The position numbers and the translations under genes are program-made. The notes below the pieces were generated by a model, which did not search any database, was not told the origin of the DNA, and was given only the letters and a program-made list of their open reading frames with translations. A stretch of DNA of 64,000 bases, taken from NCBI GenBank assembly GCA_902516435.1, contig CABXYF010000003.1, positions 1-64,000 of the forward strand. The letters are read 5' to 3'. This document shows positions 12,906 through 23,656 of this stretch, in pieces (position 1 is the first letter of the stretch; every line of letters starts with the position of its first letter). The DNA comes from an uncultured Pelagibacteraceae bacterium (lineage in GTDB: Bacteria; Pseudomonadota; Alphaproteobacteria; Pelagibacterales; Pelagibacteraceae).

Positions 12906-13649
12906 ATGAACAAATCCTCATTTTTTATTGTCGGTCAACATGCTGTTATCGAGGCTCTTCGAAACCCACAAAGAAAGGTTTTAAGAGTTTTTTTAACTGA
13001 AGAAGCAAAAAAAAATATTCACAGAAAAAACCAAAACAAAAACCTTCTAGAAGACGTTAAGGTTTATTTTAAATCAAAAAAAGAATTGGATAAATATTCA
13101 TCTAAAGATCAGTTGATGCATAATGGTTATGTCGCTGAATTAGAGCATTTAGATCAACCTGATCTTAAACAGTTTGTAAAAGACAAAAATAATCTCACAC
13201 TTGTTTGTTTGGATGAAGTGACAGACCCAAGAAATATCGGTTCTTTAATTAGGAGTGCAGCTTCATTTAAAATTGATGGTTTAATAATAAAAGAAAGACA
13301 TTTTCCAAGTGATAGTAAGCTAATGTACAAATCTGCTAGTGGATGTATGGAACATTTAAATATTTTTGAAGTATCTAATATAAATTCAACACTAAAAAAT
13401 TTAAGGGAAAAAAATTTTTGGGTTTATGGTTTTGATGCGAAAGGTGAAAAGGATTTTACAGACATTAAGTGGGAAGGTAATAATATTTTGTTATTTGGTT
13501 CTGAGGGTTTTGGTATGAGACAACATACTGGTAAATATGCTGATTTCTTTATTAAAATTAATATAAATGATAAAATTGAAAGTTTAAATATCTCCAATAG
13601 CGCTGCTATTGTCTTTCATCACTTAAGTTATATTAAAAAAAAGAGTTGA
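12906..13649 (+). CDS. rlmB: 23S rRNA (guanosine-2'-O-)-methyltransferase, SpoU/TrmH family
   Basis: SPOUT-class methyltransferase, 247 aa, probably modifying G2251 of 23S rRNA. The N-terminal substrate-binding part starts FFIVGQHAVIEAL. The knot motifs are clear: LDEVTDPRNIGSLIRSA (motif 1), LLFGSEGFGMRQ (motif 2) and ESLNISNSAAI (motif 3). It is divergent from the tRNA/tuf block and lies 33 bp upstream of tRNA-Thr. TrmH of tRNA is the alternative; the N-terminal domain favours RlmB. Confidence 0.9.
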   Translation: MNKSSFFIVGQHAVIEALRNPQRKVLRVFLTEEAKKNIHRKNQNKNLLEDVKVYFKSKKELDKYSSKDQLMHNGYVAELEHLDQPDLKQFVKDKNNLTLVCLDEVTDPRNIGSLIRSAASFKIDGLIIKERHFPSDSKLMYKSASGCMEHLNIFEVSNINSTLKNLREKNFWVYGFDAKGEKDFTDIKWEGNNILLFGSEGFGMRQHTGKYADFFIKININDKIESLNISNSAAIVFHHLSYIKKKS

Positions 13650-13682
13650 TTATTTAATAAATAGTTAATAATTATTGCGCAT

Positions 13683-13758
13683 GCCCTTGTAGCTCAGTTG
13701 GTAGAGCAATTGATTTGTAATCAATAGGTCCGCGGTTCGAATCCGTGCGGGGGCACCA
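13683..13758 (+). tRNA. trnT: tRNA-Thr (anticodon UGU), integration target
   Basis: An intact 76-nt cloverleaf with acceptor GCCCTTG / CGGGGGC (G-T pairs tolerated), anticodon TGT at 13716-13718, T-arm GGTTCGAATCC and encoded CCA. The anticodon arm is a perfect 7-3-7 palindrome (ATTGATT TGT AATCAAT, 13709-13725). The segment from the 5' side of the anticodon arm to two bases past CCA is repeated at 15250-15304, and a slightly shorter part at 18518-18565. This gene is therefore the attachment site of the following island. Confidence 0.98.
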
Positions 13759-13760
13759 TC
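13706..13760 (+). repeat. att-like repeat 1 (3' part of intact tRNA-Thr)
   Basis: This 55-bp segment, from just before the anticodon stem to two bases past the CCA end, is identical to 15250-15304. Its inner 48 bp (13712-13759) are identical to 18518-18565. The identity ends sharply on both sides, as expected for att sites made by a tyrosine recombinase acting in a tRNA anticodon arm. Confidence 0.9.
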
Positions 13761-13799
13761 TCACTTACTTTTTTATCAAAATAATTTATGCAAAAGCTA

Positions 13800-13837
13800 T
13801 TCTGACGACAATAAGTGTTGTCAGATTGTTGTCAAAT
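13800..13837 (+). repeat. Element A left 11-mer repeats
   Basis: Two tandem 11-mers, TGTTGTCAGAT (13816-13826) and TGTTGTCAAAT (13827-13837), differ by one base. A related 11-mer lies in inverted orientation at 13800-13810 (TTCTGACGACA), separated by a 5-bp spacer. They lie 40-80 bp after the att copy. The layout resembles arm-type binding sites of tyrosine integrases; that role is inferred. Confidence 0.7.
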
Positions 13838-13856
13838 CAAGTGGTCGTATATAAGA

Positions 13857-14981
13857 TTAATATGTGCAAGAAATATATAGGGTACTTTCCTCTAATATTT
13901 TTAATAACTTGTCACTTTTTAATTTACTTCGATTAGATCTTGACGGATCAATATCATTTGCACCTAGAAAATTTAATGCTGCAGATGATTTAATTCCAAA
14001 ATTAATACCTTCAGACATTTCTTTACCAAGACCTGAAACAGCAATTGCAATTAACTCTCCGCCCTCACCTACTATTGGACCGCCACTGTTACCGTGATTT
14101 ATTGCTGCATCTATTTGAAGTTCATTTGAATTATCCTGAACACCTTTAAGTGAACTAATTATTCCAGAGGATATTTTCAAATCATCACTTAAACCTTTTC
14201 CAAAAGGGTAACCCGCAACATAAATCTTTTGCAGTTTTTTGGGGTTGTAGTTTGAAAAATTAATAAATGACTTTGATCTGACATTTGCTTTTAAAAGAGC
14301 TAGATCTAATGTTTTATCTGTTGCAATTAATTGTGTGTCGTATTCTTTATTGTTGTAATTAATACTTAAACTTTTACATCCATCTACTTCGTGATTATTT
14401 GTTAATAAATTTCCACGATTATTTATAAAAAAAGCTGTACCACTTGACCCTTCAGAAGTTTCTGCTGTATCACTTAAAACTCCTTCGCATTTAAAAGGTA
14501 TTTCACTTTGCATAGCCAATTCACCTGCTTTACCATATGCTGTTGTTGTCGTTCTGAACATTTTAACCTGAATATCAAATGTCCCCTCTGCTAAGTTTAC
14601 AAAAATCTTATATTCTTCTAAAACTCCTGGAGTCTCTTTTCCAATTCTTTCTCCAGATATATACCCTGCTGAGTAAGTGGTTATTCCATAAATTTGTTGA
14701 GTAATTTTATTAGTTTTTATTTCTTTACCGGCAATCTCTGAAAGAATTTCTGTAGTTTTTTTTGCATTGTTTGAGTCTCTTAATAAAGTTTTAGTAATCG
14801 TACCTGCGTTCGTATCTATTGTTAAAACGTGATCAAGATATTTACCTGTGTGTCTCTTATTGTTGTTATCGTCAAAACTTGAATACTTAGGATCATAACA
14901 TCTATTAAATTCTATAAATTCAGCAAAACTTATGTTGCAACACAACAAAACAAAAATCACAATGCCTAAAAATTTTTTCAT
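13857..14981 (-). CDS. Secreted trypsin-like serine protease
   Basis: This 374-aa protein begins with a signal peptide (MKKFLGIVIFVLLCCNISFA, cleavage predicted before E), so it is exported. The chymotrypsin-fold triad can be read: His in LLTNNHEVDGC, Asp in DKTLDLALLK and Ser in the strongly conserved GNSGGPIVG. About 150 N-terminal residues before the protease domain have no recognised fold and may be a recognition or inhibitory part. There is no PDZ domain, unlike DegP. Its ATG overlaps the stop of the upstream small membrane gene (ATGA). It is cargo of element A; the substrate is unknown. Confidence 0.85.
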   Translation of the reverse strand: MKKFLGIVIFVLLCCNISFAEFIEFNRCYDPKYSSFDDNNNKRHTGKYLDHVLTIDTNAGTITKTLLRDSNNAKKTTEILSEIAGKEIKTNKITQQIYGITTYSAGYISGERIGKETPGVLEEYKIFVNLAEGTFDIQVKMFRTTTTAYGKAGELAMQSEIPFKCEGVLSDTAETSEGSSGTAFFINNRGNLLTNNHEVDGCKSLSINYNNKEYDTQLIATDKTLDLALLKANVRSKSFINFSNYNPKKLQKIYVAGYPFGKGLSDDLKISSGIISSLKGVQDNSNELQIDAAINHGNSGGPIVGEGGELIAIAVSGLGKEMSEGINFGIKSSAALNFLGANDIDPSRSNRSKLKSDKLLKILEESTLYISCTY

Positions 14982-15160
14982 TTTTTAAATAAAGCTCTTA
15001 CTGCAAATATGAATGCTAAAATTGTTGCTCCTGGCAAAACAAAACCCTGTCTTTGCAAACCCGTTATTGATCCTGAATTAAAATACATATCTAAATTTAT
15101 AAGCATTAAAATTGCGAATAGTATTAATGGAATAAATTTTGAATCTAAAAGTTTAATCAT
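14978..15160 (-). CDS. Small two-span membrane protein, element A
   Basis: Taking the ATG at 15160 gives 60 aa (MIKLLDSKFIPLILFAILML...). Two hydrophobic helices (about residues 8-26 and 38-56) are followed by a basic end (RALFKK). A longer version from a TTG at 15202 would code its first residues from the element's terminal 11-mer repeats, so the ATG is preferred. The stop overlaps the protease start by four bases, suggesting coupled translation and a joint role. No family was recognised. Confidence 0.6.
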   Translation of the reverse strand: MIKLLDSKFIPLILFAILMLINLDMYFNSGSITGLQRQGFVLPGATILAFIFAVRALFKK

Positions 15161-15177
15161 TTGTGAAATAATATCAT

Positions 15178-15230
15178 TGTTGTCAGATTGTTGCCAACTC
15201 AAAACTATTTTATGATTATTGTTGCAAACA
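15178..15230 (+). repeat. Element A right 11-mer repeats
   Basis: TGTTGTCAGAT (15178-15188) is identical to the first left-end 11-mer and is followed in tandem by TGTTGCCAACT (15189-15199). A degenerate copy, TGTTGCAAACA, lies at 15220-15230. They are in the same orientation as the left-end pair, about 50 bp before the second tRNA-Thr fragment. Matching repeats at both ends support element A as a real unit. Confidence 0.7.
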
Positions 15231-15249
15231 AATGTTTATTTAAACTTTT

Positions 15250-15304
15250 GCAATTGATTTGTAATCAATAGGTCCGCGGTTCGAATCCGTGCGGGGGCAC
15301 CATC
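15250..15304 (+). repeat. att-like repeat 2 (tRNA-Thr 3' fragment)
   Basis: This is a 55-bp exact copy of 13706-13760, covering the anticodon arm, variable loop, T-arm, acceptor 3' strand and CCA of tRNA-Thr. The D-arm and 5' acceptor strand are missing, so it cannot be a functional tRNA. It marks the junction between element A and element B. Confidence 0.92.
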
Positions 15305-15354
15305 ACTCAACTAAATCAACACTATTTTTTTTTTGCAAAAGTTTAATCTTATCC

Positions 15355-15416
15355 GTTAAAACACATTGACTGTGTTAGGAGTGTGTTAAGAGTGTGTTTC
15401 AGTCAAGTAGTCTTAT
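15355..15416 (+). repeat. Element B left 11-mer repeats and conserved trailer
   Basis: Three tandem 11-mers are TGTGTTAGGAG (15371-15381), TGTGTTAAGAG (15382-15392) and TGTGTTTCAGT (15393-15403). An inverted relative, GTTAAAACACA, lies at 15355-15365 after a 5-bp spacer, the same geometry as element A. Directly after the repeats comes TCAAGTAGTCTTAT (15403-15416), which matches TCAAGTGGTCGTAT at 13837-13850 in element A at 12 of 14 positions. Confidence 0.7.
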
Positions 15417-15419
15417 CAA

Positions 15420-15761
15420 CTAAATAACGTCTTTATCTATCCAATAATCTAGTTCAGACTTGAAAGTGATATCTCTTTTTTTCAAAAAATTTATAAACTT
15501 TTCTTTTCTTTCCTTTTTTATATTTTTAAGAAAGAGAAGTATTTGTTCATAAGTTAATGATTTAAGATTTTGATTTTCAATTTCTACTTCATCATTAAAA
15601 TCAATACCATATTGAGGCATCCCCTTTTTGGGACAGATACTCTCAATATATACAATACTATCAGGGTATTGTTGCAAGGTATAATAATAAGTAGCTATTT
15701 GATTTTCAAATCTATCAATCGCATCTTCTCTAAACTCTTTTTTAAGAATTGTATCATTCAT
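15420..15761 (-). CDS. Hypothetical protein, element B
   Basis: A 113-aa soluble protein with many charged and aromatic residues, rich in Lys, Asp and Ile and with no signal peptide or membrane helix. It has an ATG start at 15761 and is the last gene of the element B minus-strand set, ending just inside the 11-mer repeats. No motif or family was recognised. Confidence 0.5.
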   Translation of the reverse strand: MNDTILKKEFREDAIDRFENQIATYYYTLQQYPDSIVYIESICPKKGMPQYGIDFNDEVEIENQNLKSLTYEQILLFLKNIKKERKEKFINFLKKRDITFKSELDYWIDKDVI

Positions 15762-15853
15762 AGTTTGAGTGTTGCTGAAGTTATACGTTAAAGAACTTTA
15801 ACAATTATAAATATAAATATTAAAAGTGGCAAAAGTTAGATCAAAATCTATTT

Positions 15854-16483
15854 TTAATCGACCTTGATTTCTTTCATAATGATCATAAAATTTCTTAAAA
15901 AATTAGCAAAAGCTTGATTAAAATTTTTAAATTTTTTTGAAAATCCTTTTGGCATTTGACCTCTATTTTCTACATACATTGTAACAATACTTTGCATTCC
16001 TTCAGTGAAAGTATTGAATACCTTTGTGTCAGAAGTTATGACTTTTTTTGAGATTTGAAATGAAGCAAGAATAAGTTGTTCAATAATTTTGTTATCTTCT
16101 TCTTTATTTAGAGCAATATGAGCTACTAATACATTTTGAATAGCCTCGCCTGATTCTTTCCAAAACTTATCTAAATCTATTTTTTTTGAAACTAATCCAA
16201 GCATAAAAGATCTAACTGTTATTATGAAAACCATCAATGAAAGCATTTCAGTTTTGTTTAAGCCTTGTTTTTTTAATTGAGTATTCAACAGAGGGAGCTT
16301 GTCCATTTCCTTAAGAGTCTTTAAAGCAATATCAACTACAATAAGGTCTAAATCTATTTTTAAACCTAAAGATTTTCCGTTATTTTTTTCAGCTATATTT
16401 TTAATGTGAAGAGCATAAATTTGAATTAATTCATCATCTGTATATTCTTTTTTTTTCTTTTTAAATATATCAAATAAACCCAT
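15854..16483 (-). CDS. Hypothetical helical protein, element B
   Basis: The ATG at 16483 gives 209 aa beginning MGLFDIFKKKKKEYTDDEL. This start is preferred to one 36 codons upstream because the longer version overlaps the neighbouring small gene and has an uncharacteristic N-terminus. The MGLFD(I/L)F-K-rich start is common in proteins that touch the membrane surface. The rest is predicted helical, with hydrophobic stretches (about 100-120) that are weak for a membrane span. Function unknown. Confidence 0.55.
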   Translation of the reverse strand: MGLFDIFKKKKKEYTDDELIQIYALHIKNIAEKNNGKSLGLKIDLDLIVVDIALKTLKEMDKLPLLNTQLKKQGLNKTEMLSLMVFIITVRSFMLGLVSKKIDLDKFWKESGEAIQNVLVAHIALNKEEDNKIIEQLILASFQISKKVITSDTKVFNTFTEGMQSIVTMYVENRGQMPKGFSKKFKNFNQAFANFLRNFMIIMKEIKVD

Positions 16484-16523
16484 AATAAATTCTAACCCAG
16501 AACCACGATCCCTAAAAGTTTTT

Positions 16524-16703
16524 TCATTTATGTTTATTTCTAGTTTCGTCGTTAATTTTTCTTCCGTATTCTCTGATTTGCATACGTTCAATTGCTTCTT
16601 CTTCTTGTTTAGCCTTTTTTTTTCTTTGGTTAGAATAATAAATTGGCATTATGATTGATAAACCAACGATGATAATTGCTAATATAATTTGCCAAGTTTC
16701 CAT
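16524..16703 (-). CDS. Small single-span membrane protein, element B
   Basis: A 59-aa reading frame starts METWQIILAIIIVGLSIIMP. One N-terminal membrane helix (residues 4-24) is followed by a charged, coiled-coil-like tail (NQRKKKAKQEEEAIERMQIR). It fits exactly in the gap between the 209-aa and 119-aa genes, 3 bp from the latter's stop. Its position in an otherwise packed gene set and sensible composition support it as real; no homologue was recognised. Confidence 0.55.
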   Translation of the reverse strand: METWQIILAIIIVGLSIIMPIYYSNQRKKKAKQEEEAIERMQIREYGRKINDETRNKHK

Positions 16704-16706
16704 TTT

Positions 16707-17066
16707 TTAAAATACGTTAGTTTCATTTTTCTCAATAGCTAGTTCCTCAGAAGAAAATTCTTTGTCAAAATTCATAGCACTTTGTTTGAAATAACCTGTC
16801 CATACATCTCTACAATATTTATTCATCTTTAATAATGCATCATTTTCTTTTGGTGTAAAATCTTCACCCGCTTTTTTTGATTTATCTATTTGTTCTGTTG
16901 AATAAAGTACTTTTGATAAACTATCAAAAATTTCATCATCAATATCTTCATGAAGTGCAAATCTTTTGGCTTGTACCATGTGAATAAAATTATAATTTTG
17001 GATTATGCATCCATCCATCTCAGAATTAATTTTGCGATTAATTTTTTTTTTAATCCACTCAAACAT
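16707..17066 (-). CDS. Hypothetical protein, element B
   Basis: A 119-aa protein starting MFEWIKKKINRKINSEMDG. It is soluble and helical with many acidic and basic residues, and has no recognised motif. It is transcribed with the other element B genes. The 63 bp upstream hold an in-frame membrane-like peptide without a usual start codon, so no gene is called there. Confidence 0.5.
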   Translation of the reverse strand: MFEWIKKKINRKINSEMDGCIIQNYNFIHMVQAKRFALHEDIDDEIFDSLSKVLYSTEQIDKSKKAGEDFTPKENDALLKMNKYCRDVWTGYFKQSAMNFDKEFSSEELAIEKNETNVF

Positions 17067-17129
17067 TATTTATTTGAAATGTACCATATAAAAGAAGCCA
17101 ATTCGATTGCTATGATTAGTTCAATCAGA

Positions 17130-17432
17130 TTAAACTCCGTGTTTTTTAGCAGCTTGCATAAATTTTTTAACTTTATCAAATAAATTATTTGCTTCCTGGG
17201 GCATAAATTCAGGGCTAACACCACCCCTTCCTGATAATTTAAGAGCTTCTAATGCGTAGTGATTATATTTTGTTGAGCTAGTTTTATCTTTAAATTTTAG
17301 AGACAATTCTTCAAATTTTTCAATACCTCTTCTTTTTTTTTTAAAATATCTTCTTAGAATTCTTAGTATTCCTTCTTTATTTTTTCTTTCATTTATAATT
17401 TTTTTATTTATAAAATTCTCTTGCTCTTTCAC
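17130..17432 (-). CDS. Small basic protein, element B
   Basis: A 100-aa protein with a GTG start at 17432, overlapping the end of the nuclease-like gene by 29 bp. The N-terminal half is very rich in Lys and Arg (RILRRYFKKKRRGIEKFEEL), which suits nucleic-acid or acidic-partner binding. The overlap implies translational coupling with the larger protein. No family was recognised. Confidence 0.5.
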   Translation of the reverse strand: MKEQENFINKKIINERKNKEGILRILRRYFKKKRRGIEKFEELSLKFKDKTSSTKYNHYALEALKLSGRGGVSPEFMPQEANNLFDKVKKFMQAAKKHGV

Positions 17433-18423
17433 CTTTTTTTTCTTTAAGAGATTTATTTAAATATTTAACCTTATTCTCAAATACTTTTTGATTATCAGTT
17501 AAAATTTTTTCACCTTTTTTTAAATAATCATCTATTGCTTTGTCTAAATCTTCCATTTCTGATTTGCAGTAATTCTCTATCTTATATTCATTAGCTAAAT
17601 TTCCACCAAACACAAAACCTAGAGTTCCTCCAACAATAGTTCCAAATGGTGGAAGTATGAAAGATCCTAATTTAGCGCCTACGCCTGCTCCTGCAAATTT
17701 TCCGACACTATCGATTGCTACATTTTTCAATGCTGTCTCCATATCAGTTTTTCCTCCTGCCCAATTCATAAAGTTTTTTCCAATAGAAATGATTGAGACT
17801 ATCCCAAGTATTTCTGGAATTGCTGTTCCAAATAAATTATTGTCTTCAAAAACTTCAACGGCAGCGTCTGTGCTTTCTTTAACAAGGTTTTGAGTCTGAT
17901 CGTGACTAAATCCACTGTTTATTATCAAATTAGCTTTATCAGGGTATTTCTCAATAAATTTTTCATAAGCATCACTATTTGATATAACTTTTATATTTGG
18001 ATACTTTTCGAAATGTTTCTCAATAATTTCTATTCCATCTCCCTGAGTTTTAACTTGAAACTTTTCGTTATTAATAACCAAATCGTGACCAGATTGATTA
18101 GCTGAAGTTGGAAATTCTACCTCAGCACCTCTTTTTTGAAAATCTAAAGCTACAACTCTCTCAAATGTATAACCAGTATATGTGCTATGAAGTCCAGCTA
18201 ATGACTCAGAGGATTTTTCTGCCCTATCTGCAATTTCTTGTTTTCCAAATTTTAGTATATTTGATAAATCTCCTTTTCTAACAAAATCAACACCATCAAC
18301 AACTCTGGGATCTACTCTTAAAATATCATACACAAGATCTCCTGCATAAATAGATGCAAAAGTTCCGGTTTCTTTTAATTTAACTCGAGCAATTTTTTTT
18401 TTTAATTGTTCAGTTAAATTCAT
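17404..18423 (-). CDS. Putative PD-(D/E)xK-like nuclease fused to a glycine-zipper segment
   Basis: A 339-aa protein. Residues 82-130 look like a restriction-endonuclease-fold core: a helix with E88 (FERVVALDFQKRGAEVEFP), then D114 in SGHDLVINNEKFQVKT with Q123-x-K125, a QxK variant known from Mrr-like enzymes. Residues 241-278 form a Gly-rich hydrophobic hairpin (GAGVGAKLGSFILPPFGTIV and onward), a glycine-zipper type membrane segment. A charged coiled-coil tail follows. Nuclease plus membrane segment would suit a defence effector or secreted toxin. It is the first gene of element B; the fold assignment is by motif reading only. Confidence 0.5.
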   Translation of the reverse strand: MNLTEQLKKKIARVKLKETGTFASIYAGDLVYDILRVDPRVVDGVDFVRKGDLSNILKFGKQEIADRAEKSSESLAGLHSTYTGYTFERVVALDFQKRGAEVEFPTSANQSGHDLVINNEKFQVKTQGDGIEIIEKHFEKYPNIKVISNSDAYEKFIEKYPDKANLIINSGFSHDQTQNLVKESTDAAVEVFEDNNLFGTAIPEILGIVSIISIGKNFMNWAGGKTDMETALKNVAIDSVGKFAGAGVGAKLGSFILPPFGTIVGGTLGFVFGGNLANEYKIENYCKSEMEDLDKAIDDYLKKGEKILTDNQKVFENKVKYLNKSLKEKKGERAREFYK

Positions 18424-18439
18424 AAAAAAAGTTTATCAC

Positions 18440-18461
18440 CGTGTTCATAGTGTGTATAGAT
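18440..18461 (+). repeat. Element B right 11-mer repeats
   Basis: Two 11-mers in tandem, CGTGTTCATAG and TGTGTATAGAT, each match the left-end consensus TGTGTTAAGAG at 8 of 11 positions and have the same direct orientation. They end 56 bp before the third tRNA-Thr fragment, close to the spacing seen at the right end of element A. Confidence 0.5.
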
Positions 18462-18517
18462 TTGAAATAACTTTCAATTAACGTTGATAGTATTTATCTT
18501 TTTTAATTTAGACTCTC

Positions 18518-18565
18518 GATTTGTAATCAATAGGTCCGCGGTTCGAATCCGTGCGGGGGCACCAT
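18518..18565 (+). repeat. att-like repeat 3 (tRNA-Thr 3' fragment)
   Basis: A 48-bp exact copy of 13712-13759. The left half of the anticodon-arm palindrome has changed (CTCGATT instead of ATTGATT). This is what a crossover inside the anticodon loop would leave if the left half-site came from the incoming element. It lies in a 284-bp stretch without genes (18424-18707) that otherwise holds only the 11-mer repeats on either side. Confidence 0.9.
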
Positions 18566-18664
18566 TAAAATCTCATTTTTTTAATAAATATAATAATTAC
18601 TTTAATTTTTTAAAAAATTAAAATCGTTGAATAAGACTATAGAATGGAAGAAAGAGGAACTGAC

Positions 18665-18686
18665 TGTAGTGAATATGTAGTGAATT
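18665..18686 (+). repeat. Third pair of tandem 11-mers after tRNA-Thr fragment 3
   Basis: TGTAGTGAATA (18665-18675) and TGTAGTGAATT (18676-18686) are tandem with one mismatch and begin 99 bp after the third tRNA-Thr fragment. Period, copy number and position match the left ends of elements A and B, but the sequence is different. No inverted copy or matching right-end pair was found. They are probably the left arm of an older third element that carried the restriction-modification genes. Confidence 0.6.
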
Positions 18687-18707
18687 GTAATTAATTAATT
18701 TTGAAGT

Positions 18708-21182
18708 TTAGCTATTTTTAAATTCATCAATTGTAATTTTTGTATCATACAAGCCTACTTCTTTTGGGCTATATTTTGTATAACCGCCCGCATAATATAA
18801 GGATGCGTTTTCATATCTTTTAAATGCAAATACAGCTGAGTTCATTAAAGATGAATTAAATACTCCTAAGGTTAGTAGTAATTCAAAATCTTTGATTGAA
18901 AGGCCAGTAACCTTTTTAAACAAACCAGGCTCTAACTGTGTAATAACATCTTTTAGAGTTTGTTCTCTATAATCAGTTAAATACATAAACACAGGAATTC
19001 TTGTTGATAATTTTTGTAGTTTTTCTTGTATTTTTTTTCTTAGACTTTTTTGTTCTTTTTCTGCTTCAGATAGCTCCTTTTTTGTTTTACTATCAATTTT
19101 GTCATCTCTACTATCATTTTTAATTTTTTTTATTTTTTCTGATCGATTAATTATTTTTTCAATATCTGAGTTTAAAGATCTAAAACCTTCTACATTCATT
19201 AGTGCATCAATAGCTTTCTGATTATCCATTAATTTTTTAAGAGTTATATCATCTACATTTACTAGTTTAGCACTCTCAAATTTTTTAGCTAACTGTGACC
19301 CTGACGTACCAACCATACTAAAATCTAGAACTTCTTGAGCGTTTATTTTTTTCATTGAAGTTCCATCAAAACAAAGTATCGGTAAGAATTTAATAAATTC
19401 CTCTATTTTTTCCTCTGGATTGTTTTCATTAATATTAAGTCTACAGCTATAATCTGTTACAAGTTTTAAAGCTCTGTTTGGGGCAAAGTCAAAAAGATAA
19501 CACTCTTGTTTAAGAATTGTTTCTTCATTAATATCATCTTTTAAAGTCCACGGTGACTGAACTCTAAAAGCAGATTGGAAATAAGTTTCAGGAGATTTTG
19601 TATTTCTCAACATGAAAATTCCACTCCAAGGTTTTATAGTGACACCAGTAGTAAGTTTTCCACAAGATAAAGTAATTGTTTTTGTTTCAAGAGGATCGGA
19701 CATCCTATCTCTTACTGGTTTTAAAGCCTTCACACCTATGCCTGCTTTTTTTCCAGCACAAACTATAATTTCAAAACTTTGATAAAATGAATTTTGTTTT
19801 TTTTTTAATAAATTGTGCATAGCCCAACATGATGAAACGGATGGTAAAAACCAAAAAGTGTGAGTTAAAATATTTAACAGGTTAGAGTCTAAAAATGGAA
19901 GTGCTGGTTTTGCTATGCCAAGTTTTAAATTATCATAAATATTTTCAAATCCAGTTCCTCTAATTAAATCTAACCATTTTTGAACCTCATTTTCATATTT
20001 GAATTTAGCATCATTTTCCTCACCCTCAGATTTAAAGAAAATATTTAGATCAAATTCATCATATTCTCCTTTTTCAGTTATTTTTATAATTGCATCTGGT
20101 AATTGGTAAGTCATCATAACTAGTCTTGGTAAAGATTTGTATGGGTTGTTTTTCCCAGTCCAATTTTCTTTTGCATCTTGTTCATCGGTATAAGTCCAAT
20201 TATAAATTTGTTCTTCAATAAATTCACCTGATTCAATAGCTTTAAATGGAGTTCCACTTAAATATAAATAATGGTTTGTTTTTAAGGGTGAGATGTCCTC
20301 ACTCCAATCATCAATACCTGTTCCGATTGAGTCGTTCATTTCAGTTTTACTCTCATTTTCATATAGCTCTTTAGCGGTGTCCCTCCATGAGCCATAATGG
20401 TATTCATCTAAAACAATACAATCCCAATTAATCTTATGAGCCCATCTATTTTTAATCTTGATCCCTCCAGAAGAAGTTTTGCCAAGAAAATCTTGAAACG
20501 ATGCAAAACAAACAAAGGGTTTTGATTTATTTATTTCAGAATATTTTACACCATCTTTTGAAATAAATTGCCAATCATTAAAATCTTTATGAGTCATTAA
20601 ATCTTCATTCCATGAATTTTCAACAGCTGGCTTAAAAGTAAGAATTAAAATTTTTTTCCAATTCATCTTTTGAGAAAGTTTATAGGTCGTAAAAGTTTTT
20701 CCAAATCTCATTTTACAATTCCATAAAAAATGAGGAACTTTTTTTTCAATATTTCTGTAATTTCTAAAATATGTCGAAGTTTTTTTTATTGCTTCTTTTT
20801 GTTCAGGTCGCAAACCAAAACTCACTGTTCTATTAAAATCTATTGTTGAGTTGTTTTTAATAGATATTATTGCTGATTTAAGTTGATTAATTGTACATTT
20901 AAACCACTCACCACCAACATTTTCTATGCCATTTAATTTGAGAATTCTATGTACGTCATTATCTTTGAAAAAAGTTCCATCACTCTTAACAGCACTTTCT
21001 ATATATAAAATCTCATACTTTAAAATACCCGAGGGTCCTTTCGTTGGGAAATGTTCTTTCATTCTTTCTTCAACAGATCGTGTAGTATAACCAATTTTTA
21101 TTAAACTTTTGTATTCGGGTTTTTTTTCTGTATATGCATAGATTTTAGGAGATATATCTGGCCTTGTTGGAAAATTATCCAT
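18708..21182 (-). CDS. GIY-YIG-like nuclease fused to DEAD/DEAH helicase, restriction-type protein
   Basis: Taking the ATG at 21182 gives 824 aa. The N-terminus has a T5orf172/MUG113-type GIY-YIG domain (KIYAYTEKK, then LIKIGYTTRSVEERM, then GGEWFKC). A superfamily 2 helicase follows, with motif I NCKMRFGKT (about residues 155-163) and motif II DEYH (259-262); later SF2 motifs (YLSGTPFKA, FRVQSP) are visible. A coiled-coil-like region lies near residue 690. Its start overlaps the methylase stop (TGATG). With two methylase-like genes upstream it is probably the ATP-dependent cleavage component of a restriction system. Confidence 0.8.
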   Translation of the reverse strand: MDNFPTRPDISPKIYAYTEKKPEYKSLIKIGYTTRSVEERMKEHFPTKGPSGILKYEILYIESAVKSDGTFFKDNDVHRILKLNGIENVGGEWFKCTINQLKSAIISIKNNSTIDFNRTVSFGLRPEQKEAIKKTSTYFRNYRNIEKKVPHFLWNCKMRFGKTFTTYKLSQKMNWKKILILTFKPAVENSWNEDLMTHKDFNDWQFISKDGVKYSEINKSKPFVCFASFQDFLGKTSSGGIKIKNRWAHKINWDCIVLDEYHYGSWRDTAKELYENESKTEMNDSIGTGIDDWSEDISPLKTNHYLYLSGTPFKAIESGEFIEEQIYNWTYTDEQDAKENWTGKNNPYKSLPRLVMMTYQLPDAIIKITEKGEYDEFDLNIFFKSEGEENDAKFKYENEVQKWLDLIRGTGFENIYDNLKLGIAKPALPFLDSNLLNILTHTFWFLPSVSSCWAMHNLLKKKQNSFYQSFEIIVCAGKKAGIGVKALKPVRDRMSDPLETKTITLSCGKLTTGVTIKPWSGIFMLRNTKSPETYFQSAFRVQSPWTLKDDINEETILKQECYLFDFAPNRALKLVTDYSCRLNINENNPEEKIEEFIKFLPILCFDGTSMKKINAQEVLDFSMVGTSGSQLAKKFESAKLVNVDDITLKKLMDNQKAIDALMNVEGFRSLNSDIEKIINRSEKIKKIKNDSRDDKIDSKTKKELSEAEKEQKSLRKKIQEKLQKLSTRIPVFMYLTDYREQTLKDVITQLEPGLFKKVTGLSIKDFELLLTLGVFNSSLMNSAVFAFKRYENASLYYAGGYTKYSPKEVGLYDTKITIDEFKNS

Positions 21183-22684
21183 CACATTTCTTTAATAAGA
21201 TTTTCTATATGCTCTATTTCTTTTTCAGATAACTTGTATTTTTTGTATAATTTTTTGTCGTTCCAATCTTGATCAAAATTTTCTTGAGGTACAAATTGGA
21301 AGCAACTTTTTGTAATGTTCATTGATGAAAGTGTTAAAAGGACAAGAAATCTTACAAACTTAGTTTTAAAGAAATTTACACAATTCTCAGCTTGAATTTT
21401 TTTTTCAAATGAATTTAAAACTAAATAAGTTTCTGATGTTACTTGATTAATTCCACTTATTTTTACTTTTGTTATTACATTGGATTTTCCATCTTTAGAA
21501 TTATTTACACCTCCCCTATCTGGGTTAACTTTTCCAATATAAACATTATACTTATTTATTAAATTTGCATTATTAGTTACTAAATCTTTTTTAATATACC
21601 CAATACCTCCACTTGATATAAGTTGAGCTGAGTCATTAAAAAAAGAATTTTTTCCTCTTACAGAAGTGTCAATGCCATAGGGTTTTCTTGATAGAACAAT
21701 TTCGTTAAAAAACTTTTGATTTTCATTAAATTTTCTAACAATACCCAATCCAATATTATCTCTTATGAATATTTCATTTTCATTAAGTTTTCTGTTTAGT
21801 GAATCTTTATTGTTACTATTTATAGAAGTAAACTTACAAGTACCTTTATAATTTTTATCCCACAAAAAATAGCAAACACCTCCTGCAATATCAACACCTG
21901 GAAAACAATCGCGACTTTTTGGATAATCAATTAATTCTTTCAACCTTTGATCGTTTAGCATGTTTTTTCTAAAATCATCCAACCCCTTACCGCCTGCAAA
22001 CCATCTTGAGGGTATTATCATAGACAAATAATTTGGATTAAGACGCTTTGCCTGTTCTACAAACAATTGAAATATTGGTTTTGCACTTATGCCGTGACCT
22101 CCATCAGTCATCTGATAAGGAGGGTTTCCAATAATAACATCAAATTTCATTTTAAATAATTTTTCTAAATTATTTTCATGTATAAATGAATATGCATAAT
22201 TTTCCAATTGCTCATCTCTCTCAAATATTTCTTTATTAACACCACAAAAATTACATAAATTTTTTGAATTCCATGAATGATTGTATTTATAAAATTTTAT
22301 ATTTCCCTCAATTGAATTAAAATTAGAAATTGAATATTTTCCATTAGCATATTTTGAGCAATAAACAGTTCTTCTACTTAACAATGCGGTTAATTCTGTA
22401 ATAGCCAATCCAAAGACTTGATTTTTTAAGATATGATCTATTCTTCTATCAAGTTTTGGTATTTTTTTTGAGAGTCCTTTAATCAGTCTTTTTGTTATTT
22501 CTCTTAAAAATACTCCTGATTTTGAAAAAGGATCCAAAAATTTAATATTTTCATTTTGCCAAATTTCTTCAGGAAGTTTATCCAGCATATCTGAGACTAT
22601 TTTAGGTGGGGTAAAAACCTCATCACTACTAAGGTTTGCTATACACGTTAAAATATCGGGATTATGTATCTTCTCTAGTTTCAT
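21182..22684 (-). CDS. Eco57I-like N6-adenine DNA methyltransferase
   Basis: A 500-aa protein with a SAM-binding motif I variant (FLDPFSKSGVFL, about residues 49-60) and the catalytic motif IV IIGNPPYQ (NPPY at 187-190), typical of N6-adenine methylases of the Eco57I/type I M group. A CxxC pair (CNFC, residues 144-147) may bind zinc. The C-terminal half should hold target recognition. It overlaps the upstream 222-aa gene by 23 bp and the helicase gene by 1 bp, so the three form one operon. Confidence 0.85.
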   Translation of the reverse strand: MKLEKIHNPDILTCIANLSSDEVFTPPKIVSDMLDKLPEEIWQNENIKFLDPFSKSGVFLREITKRLIKGLSKKIPKLDRRIDHILKNQVFGLAITELTALLSRRTVYCSKYANGKYSISNFNSIEGNIKFYKYNHSWNSKNLCNFCGVNKEIFERDEQLENYAYSFIHENNLEKLFKMKFDVIIGNPPYQMTDGGHGISAKPIFQLFVEQAKRLNPNYLSMIIPSRWFAGGKGLDDFRKNMLNDQRLKELIDYPKSRDCFPGVDIAGGVCYFLWDKNYKGTCKFTSINSNNKDSLNRKLNENEIFIRDNIGLGIVRKFNENQKFFNEIVLSRKPYGIDTSVRGKNSFFNDSAQLISSGGIGYIKKDLVTNNANLINKYNVYIGKVNPDRGGVNNSKDGKSNVITKVKISGINQVTSETYLVLNSFEKKIQAENCVNFFKTKFVRFLVLLTLSSMNITKSCFQFVPQENFDQDWNDKKLYKKYKLSEKEIEHIENLIKEM

Positions 22685-23330
22685 ATAGTTTTAGAAAATT
22701 AATTAATGGATATTCTTTTATAGGATTTGGTATTATCGCTTCCTCTCCTAAGTCTGAGAATAACGTTCCTTCCTCAAATGGAGAATAATCGACTAAATTT
22801 TTATACTCAAAATCTCTTCTTTTAATTTTATCATCAATTAAAGACCATTCAGATAAAATTAAAGGCTTTTTTTTATTTGGAGAAATGAATGTCAAAGCAT
22901 CTGCGCAAACTATGTTTTTTTCTAAAATAAATTTTATATTTTTAAGAAGTTCTATATTTTCACTTTTAAAAAGATTTTTATAATTATTTTTAAAAATATT
23001 AAGAAGTCTTTTTTGAGTTATGTTTACATTGTCTTGAATTATATCAACTCCATACAATGATCCGATCAGTAATACTGAAAATTTATCATATGAGTATTGA
23101 TTTTTTTTATATAAATTATTTAGAATTGCTAATTTTCTTATTAATATTTCAGACAAAAAGTTTCCATTTCCACAAGCAGGTTCTAAAAATCTAGAATCTA
23201 TTCTATCTGTTTGGTCTTTTACCAAATTTAACATATCATTAACTTCTTTTTCTGAAGTGTAAACTTCACCAAAACTACTTACTCTCTCTTTAGAGATTAT
23301 TTGTTTTGATTTAGTAATTTTTTCTTCCAT
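22662..23330 (-). CDS. DNA methyltransferase-like subunit lacking the catalytic NPPY motif
   Basis: A 222-aa protein. SAM-binding motif I is clear (FLEPACGNGNFLSEIL, about residues 48-63), preceded by the family start SKERVSSFGEVYTS. There is no (D/N)PP(Y/F) motif and the protein ends near FSDLGEEAIIPNPIKEYPLI. I recognise this as a recurring short partner protein of Eco57I-type methylases with helicase-nucleases. It probably acts with the 500-aa protein as a two-part modification enzyme. First gene of the operon. Confidence 0.75.
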   Translation of the reverse strand: MEEKITKSKQIISKERVSSFGEVYTSEKEVNDMLNLVKDQTDRIDSRFLEPACGNGNFLSEILIRKLAILNNLYKKNQYSYDKFSVLLIGSLYGVDIIQDNVNITQKRLLNIFKNNYKNLFKSENIELLKNIKFILEKNIVCADALTFISPNKKKPLILSEWSLIDDKIKRRDFEYKNLVDYSPFEEGTLFSDLGEEAIIPNPIKEYPLINFLKLYETREDT

Positions 23331-23359
23331 AATTTAGATTTTAAGTGTGTCGAAATTAA

Positions 23360-23488
23360 TTATAATTTTTTATCATTAAGCTTAGTCATAGCTTTTCCTG
23401 GGGAAAAAGTATAATCATTGTCATCCATTAATTTTCCACTTCCATCATAAAGCTTCCAATTAAATTTTACTTTATCTTTTTGCTTCAT
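23360..23488 (-). CDS. Small hypothetical protein (42 aa)
   Basis: ATG at 23488 to TAA at 23360 encodes MKQKDKVKFNWKLYDGSGKL and 22 further residues (ending TKLNDKKL). It is soluble, basic and of sensible composition. It lies alone between the restriction-type operon and the SGNH gene. Only an open frame and amino-acid composition support it. Confidence 0.4.
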   Translation of the reverse strand: MKQKDKVKFNWKLYDGSGKLMDDNDYTFSPGKAMTKLNDKKL

Positions 23489-23518
23489 TATTATGACCCT
23501 ATCGCAGGCATTAGACTA

Positions 23519-23656
23519 TTACCAAGCAGTCAGTTTCCAACACTTATCTGCATCTTCTAGACGAACGTAACAACCCAGAAAAGACATTAGTTTAAATGCA
23601 AAAAATCCTCCAATTAAGACTATTGCTATTAATATAATTGGATTAATTTTTTTCAT
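23519..23656 (-). CDS. Small membrane-anchored protein (45 aa)
   Basis: ATG at 23656, MKKINPIILIAIVLIGGFFA followed by FKLMSFLGCYVRLEDADKCW and a short end. One N-terminal membrane helix (residues 5-22) precedes a short outside part with two cysteines. It sits 30 bp upstream of the previous small frame on the same strand. No family recognised. Confidence 0.45.
   Translation of the reverse strand: MKKINPIILIAIVLIGGFFAFKLMSFLGCYVRLEDADKCWKLTAW

Follow-up and report, generated by a model that had tools for sequence, protein, structure and literature searches.

What kind of element places a secreted protease gene and one small membrane protein gene immediately after a tRNA gene, and do the two genes work together? 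These questions are raised by element A, a 1,544-bp segment (13759-15302) of the window, which is the whole 64,000-nucleotide stretch analysed here from an uncultured Pelagibacteraceae (SAR11) bacterium (contig CABXYF010000003.1, positions 1 to 64,000). Element A is flanked by an intact tRNA-Thr gene on one side and, on the other, by 53 bp repeating the 3′ end of that gene; its cargo consists of the protease and a 60-aa two-span protein, with nothing else. The preliminary description had called it a minimal element with exactly two genes; this holds between these borders, where it is one of three elements in tandem (Table 1).

Table 1. Coordinates of element A, its target, its signals and its neighbours in the window
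Feature	Position	Strand	Remarks or basis
tRNA-Thr(TGT), intact, integration target	13683..13758	+	ARAGORN
Left core repeat, 3′ 53 bp of tRNA-Thr	13706-13758	+	53-bp identity with 15250-15302
Left arm-type iterons, two 11-bp units	13817..13838	+	GTTGTCAGATT GTTGTCAAATC
Motif after the left iterons	13836..13846	+	ATCAAGTGGTC in A, ATCAAGTAGTC in many other tRNA-Thr cassettes; ends compared by eye
Secreted trypsin-like protease (P0001), 374 aa, signal peptide	13857..14981	-	
Two-span membrane protein (P0002), 60 aa, first cassette gene	14978..15160	-	
Promoter-like site	15168..15197	-	-35 TTGGCA (15197-15192), 18-nt spacer, extended -10 TG-n-TATTAT (15173-15168)
Right arm-type iterons, overlapping the promoter	15179..15200	+	GTTGTCAGATT GTTGCCAACTC
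Right-end sequence common to other tRNA-Thr cassettes	15214..15242	+	GATTATTGTTGCAAACAAATGTTTATTTA
Core repeat shared by A (right) and B (left), second tRNA-Thr 3′-end copy	15250..15302	+	
Element B, 3,262 bp	15303..18564		five or six small genes on the - strand
Element C, remnant	18565 to about 23518		without a right core copy

Shuffled sequences indicated that no core-repeat matches are expected by chance. A third stretch of the tRNA-Thr 3′ end (47 bp, 18518-18564) closes element B. Two relatives, L106 and L111, have an empty site: the region before and through their tRNA gene is 94% identical to positions 13001-13758 of the window, and the sequence 7 bases past tRNA-Thr matches positions 23519-23656 at 90-91%. 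Positions 13759-23518 are therefore inserted DNA, made up of elements A, B and C in tandem. Neither A nor B has an integrase or recombinase detectable with Pfam or with a profile built from 13 SAR11 satellite integrases, and Pfam predicted no packaging gene such as TerS in A. Element B is likewise provided with iterons, at 15372-15404 and at about 18441-18462, and its ATG (18423) occupies the fixed position described below; a PDZ match in one of its genes is far under the Pfam cut-off. Another genome contains a 1,841-bp element (L095, 6249-8089) that shares with B the ends and a gene for a 113-aa protein, the other cargo being different, and by their sequences the two appear to be mosaic cassettes. 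Element C codes for a type IIG-like restriction-modification set (helicase/nuclease and methyltransferase), and its left iterons (TGTAGTGAATA TGTAGTGAATT, 18665-18686) resemble those of elements of 5.7-9.9 kb in other genomes (L081 and L088).

The protease had been described as trypsin-like, with a signal peptide and an intact triad, and our analyses agree. Pfam returned a Trypsin_2 match (E=5e-24), and the triad H197, D226 and S299 is identical in 41 of 41 aligned homologues (L054, which has no full ORF, was left out of this alignment and L082 included). C202 is conserved in 39 and C372 in all 41 of these sequences, and the two residues may form a bond; the invariant Cys is found in a separate C-terminal tail. 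In contrast with these conserved features, residues 23-170 form a variable N-terminal region, with a mean identity of 9% across the 41 homologues and no relatives among the 1,486 ORFs of the fetched loci. A single-sequence structure model was useless (mean pLDDT of 33.7). The protein is most likely exported, to act in the periplasm or at the surface. As a first guess, weakly held, it might trim envelope or phage-receptor proteins.

The closest solved chains are those of DegP/DegQ (E 5e-18). Together with the Trypsin_2 domain, the signal peptide and the His-Asp-Ser triad, all of which HtrA/Deg proteins share, this raises the possibility that the cargo is an HtrA/Deg-like envelope quality-control enzyme, i.e. 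an ordinary fitness gene. However, Pfam predicted no PDZ domain in the protease or in the seven relatives scanned, whereas HtrA/Deg proteins have a C-terminal one, and both the variable N-terminal region and the Cys-ended tail set it apart from them. In addition, the genome of the window already encodes another trypsin-like protein of 472 aa, which is 31% identical to the protease over residues 127-336. We regard this identity as possible but would sooner bet against it; it concerns the cargo, and it is compatible with a reading of element A as a cassette.

Relatives of the protease (E<=1e-30) occur in 50 of 397 genomes of the family, at many sites. They represent 53 places, and the surroundings of 42 of these were fetched, giving 41 loci including the window; those not fetched at first were in G159, G362, G056 (C16), G077, G264, G285, G174, G086, G081, G266 and G185 (C42). 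Seventeen of the 39 loci examined for proximity have the gene within 400 bp of a tRNA or tmRNA gene, against 70 of 560 other ORFs in the same loci (Fisher p=5e-6). At eight of the 41 loci the protease is bracketed by a tRNA gene and a copy of its 3′ end. Two more such cases, G264 (L082) and G362 (L179/L185), were recovered later through the search for tRNA-Thr repeats. The ten bracketed elements are found at tRNA-Thr (five), tRNA-Ser (three), tRNA-Glu (one) and tRNA-Met (one), and the proteases at tRNA-Thr do not form a single clade in the tree, which does not include G362 and has several weak forks.

Other relatives are found in different settings. Eight of them (L059, L060, L066-L071) belong to a shorter subfamily that forms one clade and is located in a pilin-gene region, next to genes for proteins with type IV pilin-like starts (GFTLIELLVVVA) and for large secreted proteins. 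In L034, L035 and L037 the gene is beside a tmRNA gene where no 3′ repeat was detected; these are possibly older insertions. Further relatives lie between ordinary genes. At L061 (5266-10970), two elements are in tandem at tRNA-Met, and one of them contains two different proteases of the family whose genes overlap by 4 bases. Outside the family, a search of genome contigs of other species gave one distant match (Microscilla, L032), 14 phage records have weak matches confined to the protease domain, and no relative was found in IMG/VR.

The tRNA-Thr 3′ end is present in 233 of the 397 genomes, 47 of which have two or more copies. Among the fetched loci, which were chosen largely for tRNA-Thr 3′-end repeats or for the protease, we found 51 tRNA-bracketed elements. 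Thirty-nine of them are at most 3.5 kb long, 32 of these being located at tRNA-Thr, and the smallest (584-683 bp) contain one gene each. The genes are antiparallel to the tRNA gene in almost every tRNA-Thr element of this size class. None of the 39 elements encodes a satellite-type integrase recognized by the 13-sequence profile, and Pfam analyses of 56 tRNA-Thr cargo proteins revealed neither other types of integrases nor a relaxase. These 56 proteins come from 60 listed ORFs; four of them (L092:3722, L095:3765, L095:4740 and L096:1865), apparently spurious or chromosomal, were left out of the Pfam and PADLOC scans. The cargo includes four trypsin-like and two pilin-like proteins, single Pfam matches to SAD_SRA, HNH, Mrr_cat, DUF4268, a polysaccharide lyase, an autotransporter domain and others, and an LmuA-like PADLOC match. 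Because envelope and defence-type cargo are mixed, the cassette platform is general and does not by itself inform on the role of the protease. A nearly identical signal peptide (MKKLLGIVVLGLLLSGNAYA-like), followed by unrelated proteins, is encoded at the start of 17 of the 78 cargo ORFs present in the elements up to 3.5 kb long (L049, L074, L077, L078, L080, L082, L099 and others).

The small elements share an organization of their ends, with 11-bp iterons at fixed distances inside both. An 11-bp periodicity was detected in the left region of 32 of the 39 elements, compared with 60 of 1000 random windows; in the right region only 19 of the 39 pass, against 39 of 1000. The iteron sequences vary between elements and agree between the left and right sides of one element. 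Thus, the two sides match at 16.05 of 20 positions within elements vs 14.56 between elements, a difference reached in 0 of 20,000 permutations, and the same result (0/20,000) was obtained with the tRNA-Thr elements alone. There are exceptions: L075, L084, L095 (2,556 bp) and L099 have no recognizable left iterons, and those of L096 and L101 differ between left and right. The iteron pattern of element A is found at 17 places in nine of the 397 genomes, all close to a tRNA-Thr 3′-end copy and in or near tRNA-Thr cassettes; the reversed pattern occurs in none of the 397 genomes. In unrelated phage contigs (L165, L168 and L169), A-like iterons are located near integrases or around an att-like site, and a role of the iterons as arm sites fits this location.

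A second regularity concerns the position at which the cargo begins. In element A the first cargo ATG (15160) is 142 nt from the right end. In 19 of 32 tRNA-Thr cassettes, the first ATG of an ORF with at least 45 codons is separated from the right end by 139-142 nt, vs 153 of 20,000 random anchors; the other 13 have no fixed ATG. The ends of these 19 cassettes share ancestry, so that they do not represent independent events; yet cargoes with no relation to one another start at the same base. TGnTA precedes the ATG in 18 of the 19, and the ATG follows the eight-base motif by 6-8 nt. Element A as a whole contains no more promoter-like sites than shuffled sequences do, and the support for the site in Table 1 is its repeated position. 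As the ATG closely follows the -10 element, the mRNA may be leaderless or nearly so. We infer that translation would start in this way and that integrase binding to the overlapping iterons could control expression. In the satellites L157, L160 and L151, the same slot holds the ATG of an integrase gene facing the same way, at 141, 150 and 151 nt from the right end, respectively.

We searched for an integrase that could serve such ends. Scanning IMG/VR for the tRNA-Thr core gave 24 stretches which, among the matches listed, are mostly phage tRNA genes. One viral contig, L135, has the core outside a tRNA gene with iterons on both sides. It codes for a 328-aa integrase whose ATG is 149 nt from the core end, for a TerS (terminase small subunit) protein and for an AAA protein. 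Relatives of this integrase are present in 12 of the 397 genomes, at tRNA-Asn, Met, Arg and Glu genes with a repeat and also beside tRNA-Ser and tmRNA genes, and three of the 12 loci have TerS relatives as well. The satellite integrases found here are of the PHROG 1/PF00589 + Int_N type. The nearest thing to a helper and cassette pair is found in G056 (L152), where a satellite with integrase and TerS genes and a 1,389-bp integrase-less cassette, with like TGACACA iterons, are in tandem at one tRNA-Met gene.

No integrase associated with the iterons of element A was found among the 397 SAR11-family genomes. In IMG/VR, this iteron pattern occurs in six contigs, none of them SAR11-like, the second common iteron type in none, and the L135 integrase has no match beyond L135 itself. 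The L135-type integrase is absent from the genome of the window, which is 79% complete. The only PF00589 match in that genome is a Xer-like tyrosine recombinase of 317 aa (L108, 345-1298, contig 32). We consider this resident enzyme an unlikely helper because no arm-binding region was detected in it. It is encoded near a tRNA-Glu gene both there and in L063 (11836-12789).

Judged by its sequence, element A thus combines core repeats on both sides, paired iterons, a promoter-like site, a fixed ATG and two cargo genes with the absence of a recombinase. Its ends are best read as the attP layout of SAR11 phage satellites in which the integrase gene has been exchanged for cargo. We propose, with a probability of roughly 70%, that element A is a non-autonomous cassette: with ends borrowed from satellites and cargo in place of the integrase, it would be moved in trans. 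A further point in favour of this reading is that relatives of the protease sit at tRNA-Thr, Ser, Glu and Met genes and those at tRNA-Thr are not monophyletic. In such a scenario, an arm-binding tyrosine integrase of a phage or satellite would act in trans on attL and attR, and element A would be excised as a 1,544-bp circle. Insertion of the circle at tRNA-Thr, whether in that cell or in a different one, would preserve an intact tRNA gene, and repeated insertions would account for the A-B-C array. The cassette promoter would drive a leaderless mRNA of both cargo genes, with translation of the membrane protein first and of the protease through ATGA coupling, and the variable N-terminal region of the protease would choose its targets.

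Alternatively, element A might be a product of decay: internal deletion would have reduced a larger prophage or satellite to a relic resembling a CIME, with fossil ends and surviving genes. Relics of this kind have precedents, since CIMEs, 1.2-13 kb long and equipped with att sites and cargo, are described as common in streptococci in the sections of that report used here (PMC7563491). The missing right core of element C, the elements devoid of arms and the lack of a matching integrase for the iterons of A are also what decay would leave. Yet decay does not readily account for intact ORFs and paired iterons in most elements, for an ATG at the same place behind a like promoter in 19 of 32 tRNA-Thr cassettes, or for homologous ends followed by unrelated cargo. 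The occurrence of the protease at four tRNA types and the one-gene elements of 584-683 bp also argue against it, and we consider this origin unlikely.

We then return to the second question, that of the pair. The 60-aa two-span protein was reported to overlap the protease by ATGA, and this proved correct: a Kyte-Doolittle count gives two hydrophobic spans, and the genes share the ATGA. With the TTG start chosen by the ORF lister the protein would be 74 aa long; the ATG at 15160 is a better start. Neither Pfam nor PHROG gave a match to P0002. A search of 201 genomes of the genus revealed no credible relative (the best other match, E 0.002, has an internal stop), and none is present among the 1,486 ORFs of the fetched loci. 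The preliminary description had suggested that the two genes may form a surface-defence, immunity or signalling module, to be checked by looking for conserved pairing in other genomes. A conserved module is not supported: in addition to the lack of P0002 relatives, most protease relatives have no membrane gene. Seven of the ten bracketed elements contain the protease alone, one has two proteases, one has the protease and a zinc-ribbon-like protein, and only that of the window has the membrane gene. That description had also named two observations that would speak against a module, proteases regularly occurring without the membrane gene and proteases in core genome positions. The former is what we found, and the latter applies in part, to the eight relatives of the pilin-gene region and those between ordinary genes.

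There is possibly a looser habit of pairing with small membrane proteins in the clade of the protease, because such neighbours accompany four of the five relatives closest to it in the tree. L037 and L034 have a gene for a small one-span protein upstream and L035 has one directly downstream, while a 156-aa, apparently multi-span protein is encoded downstream in L033; all are dissimilar in sequence to P0002. A dedicated anti-phage or immunity module merely residing in the island would be in keeping with these neighbours, with the restriction-modification set of element C and with the SAD_SRA, HNH, Mrr_cat and LmuA-like proteins of other tRNA-Thr cassettes, but we deem it very improbable given that the membrane gene has no credible relative in the 201 genomes of the genus, that seven elements hold the protease alone, that the pair does not form the conserved gene set of an anti-phage protease system and that PADLOC matches only the generic protease domain of an RT-protease fusion, not a known defence system.

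The cassette reading can be set against the nearest kinds of elements described in the parts of the literature used here, namely CIMEs, Methylopumilus tRNA-repeat arrays, CALINs and marine satellites (PMC10872708, PMC11389934, PMC7563491, PMC7318151, PMC12324425). CIMEs are the closest known kind. According to the same sections as above, they consist of att-flanked cargo without a recombinase, in tandem at one site and in the same 1.2-13 kb range (PMC7563491). Similarly, element A has att-type direct repeats at a shared target, as seen from the 53-bp and 47-bp copies and the empty site, and neither a recombinase nor transfer genes were found with Pfam in A, B and the 56 cargo proteins or with the integrase profile. 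In contrast, CIMEs derive from ICEs or IMEs, whereas the ends of the cassettes match those of TerS-bearing phage satellites; among the elements found here, those with the same ends carry integrase and TerS genes. A further feature of the cassettes is that the cargo starts where satellites have their integrase gene, downstream of a standard promoter.

Marine phage satellites include VEIMEs, tycheposons and PICMIs, as listed in the part of the source used here (PMC11389934). They have tRNA sites in common with the cassettes, and the satellites found here, such as L135 and L152, have both integrase and TerS genes; element A has neither, and the cassettes share only their ends and no genes with satellites. 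Tycheposons have their own deep-branching tyrosine recombinase and hallmark genes. By this description element A is set apart from them, as it has no recombinase. Integron cassettes and CALINs resemble the cassettes in having one or few genes per unit, arrays and, as proposed here for the cassettes, an integrase acting in trans, as far as the cited text goes (PMC11389934). Here, however, no integron integrase was detected, the site consists of a tRNA 3′ end and arm iterons, and each cassette has its own promoter-like site. The additive flexible island at tRNA-Lys in Methylopumilus contains arrays bounded by repeats of the last 20 nt of the tRNA, of 330 bp to 42 kb, with mostly genes of no known function; arm sites, helper and promoter are not described in the excerpts used (PMC10872708), while the cassettes have arm iterons and a promoter-like site. 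Within the open-access literature, a limited basis for a negative, we found no description of integrase-less SAR11 cassettes with satellite-type arm sites.

The genomes of SAR11 bacteria are small and streamlined, and little is known about the routes by which single genes enter them. We tentatively suggest, at a little less than even odds, that they acquire single genes in an integron-like manner without an integron. In such a system, tRNA genes would be the landing sites, att-ended cassettes with a leaderless promoter and a start-codon slot the mobile units, satellite integrases the machinery acting in trans and the 11-bp iteron the address of the helper, with exported proteases with exchangeable N-terminal regions being among the commoner cargoes. 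This offers a testable code, in which the iteron sequence predicts the helper integrase. Differences of one gene next to tRNA genes would be explained by cassettes of 0.6-3.3 kb with satellite ends, which would also form a further level of parasitism beneath the phage satellites.
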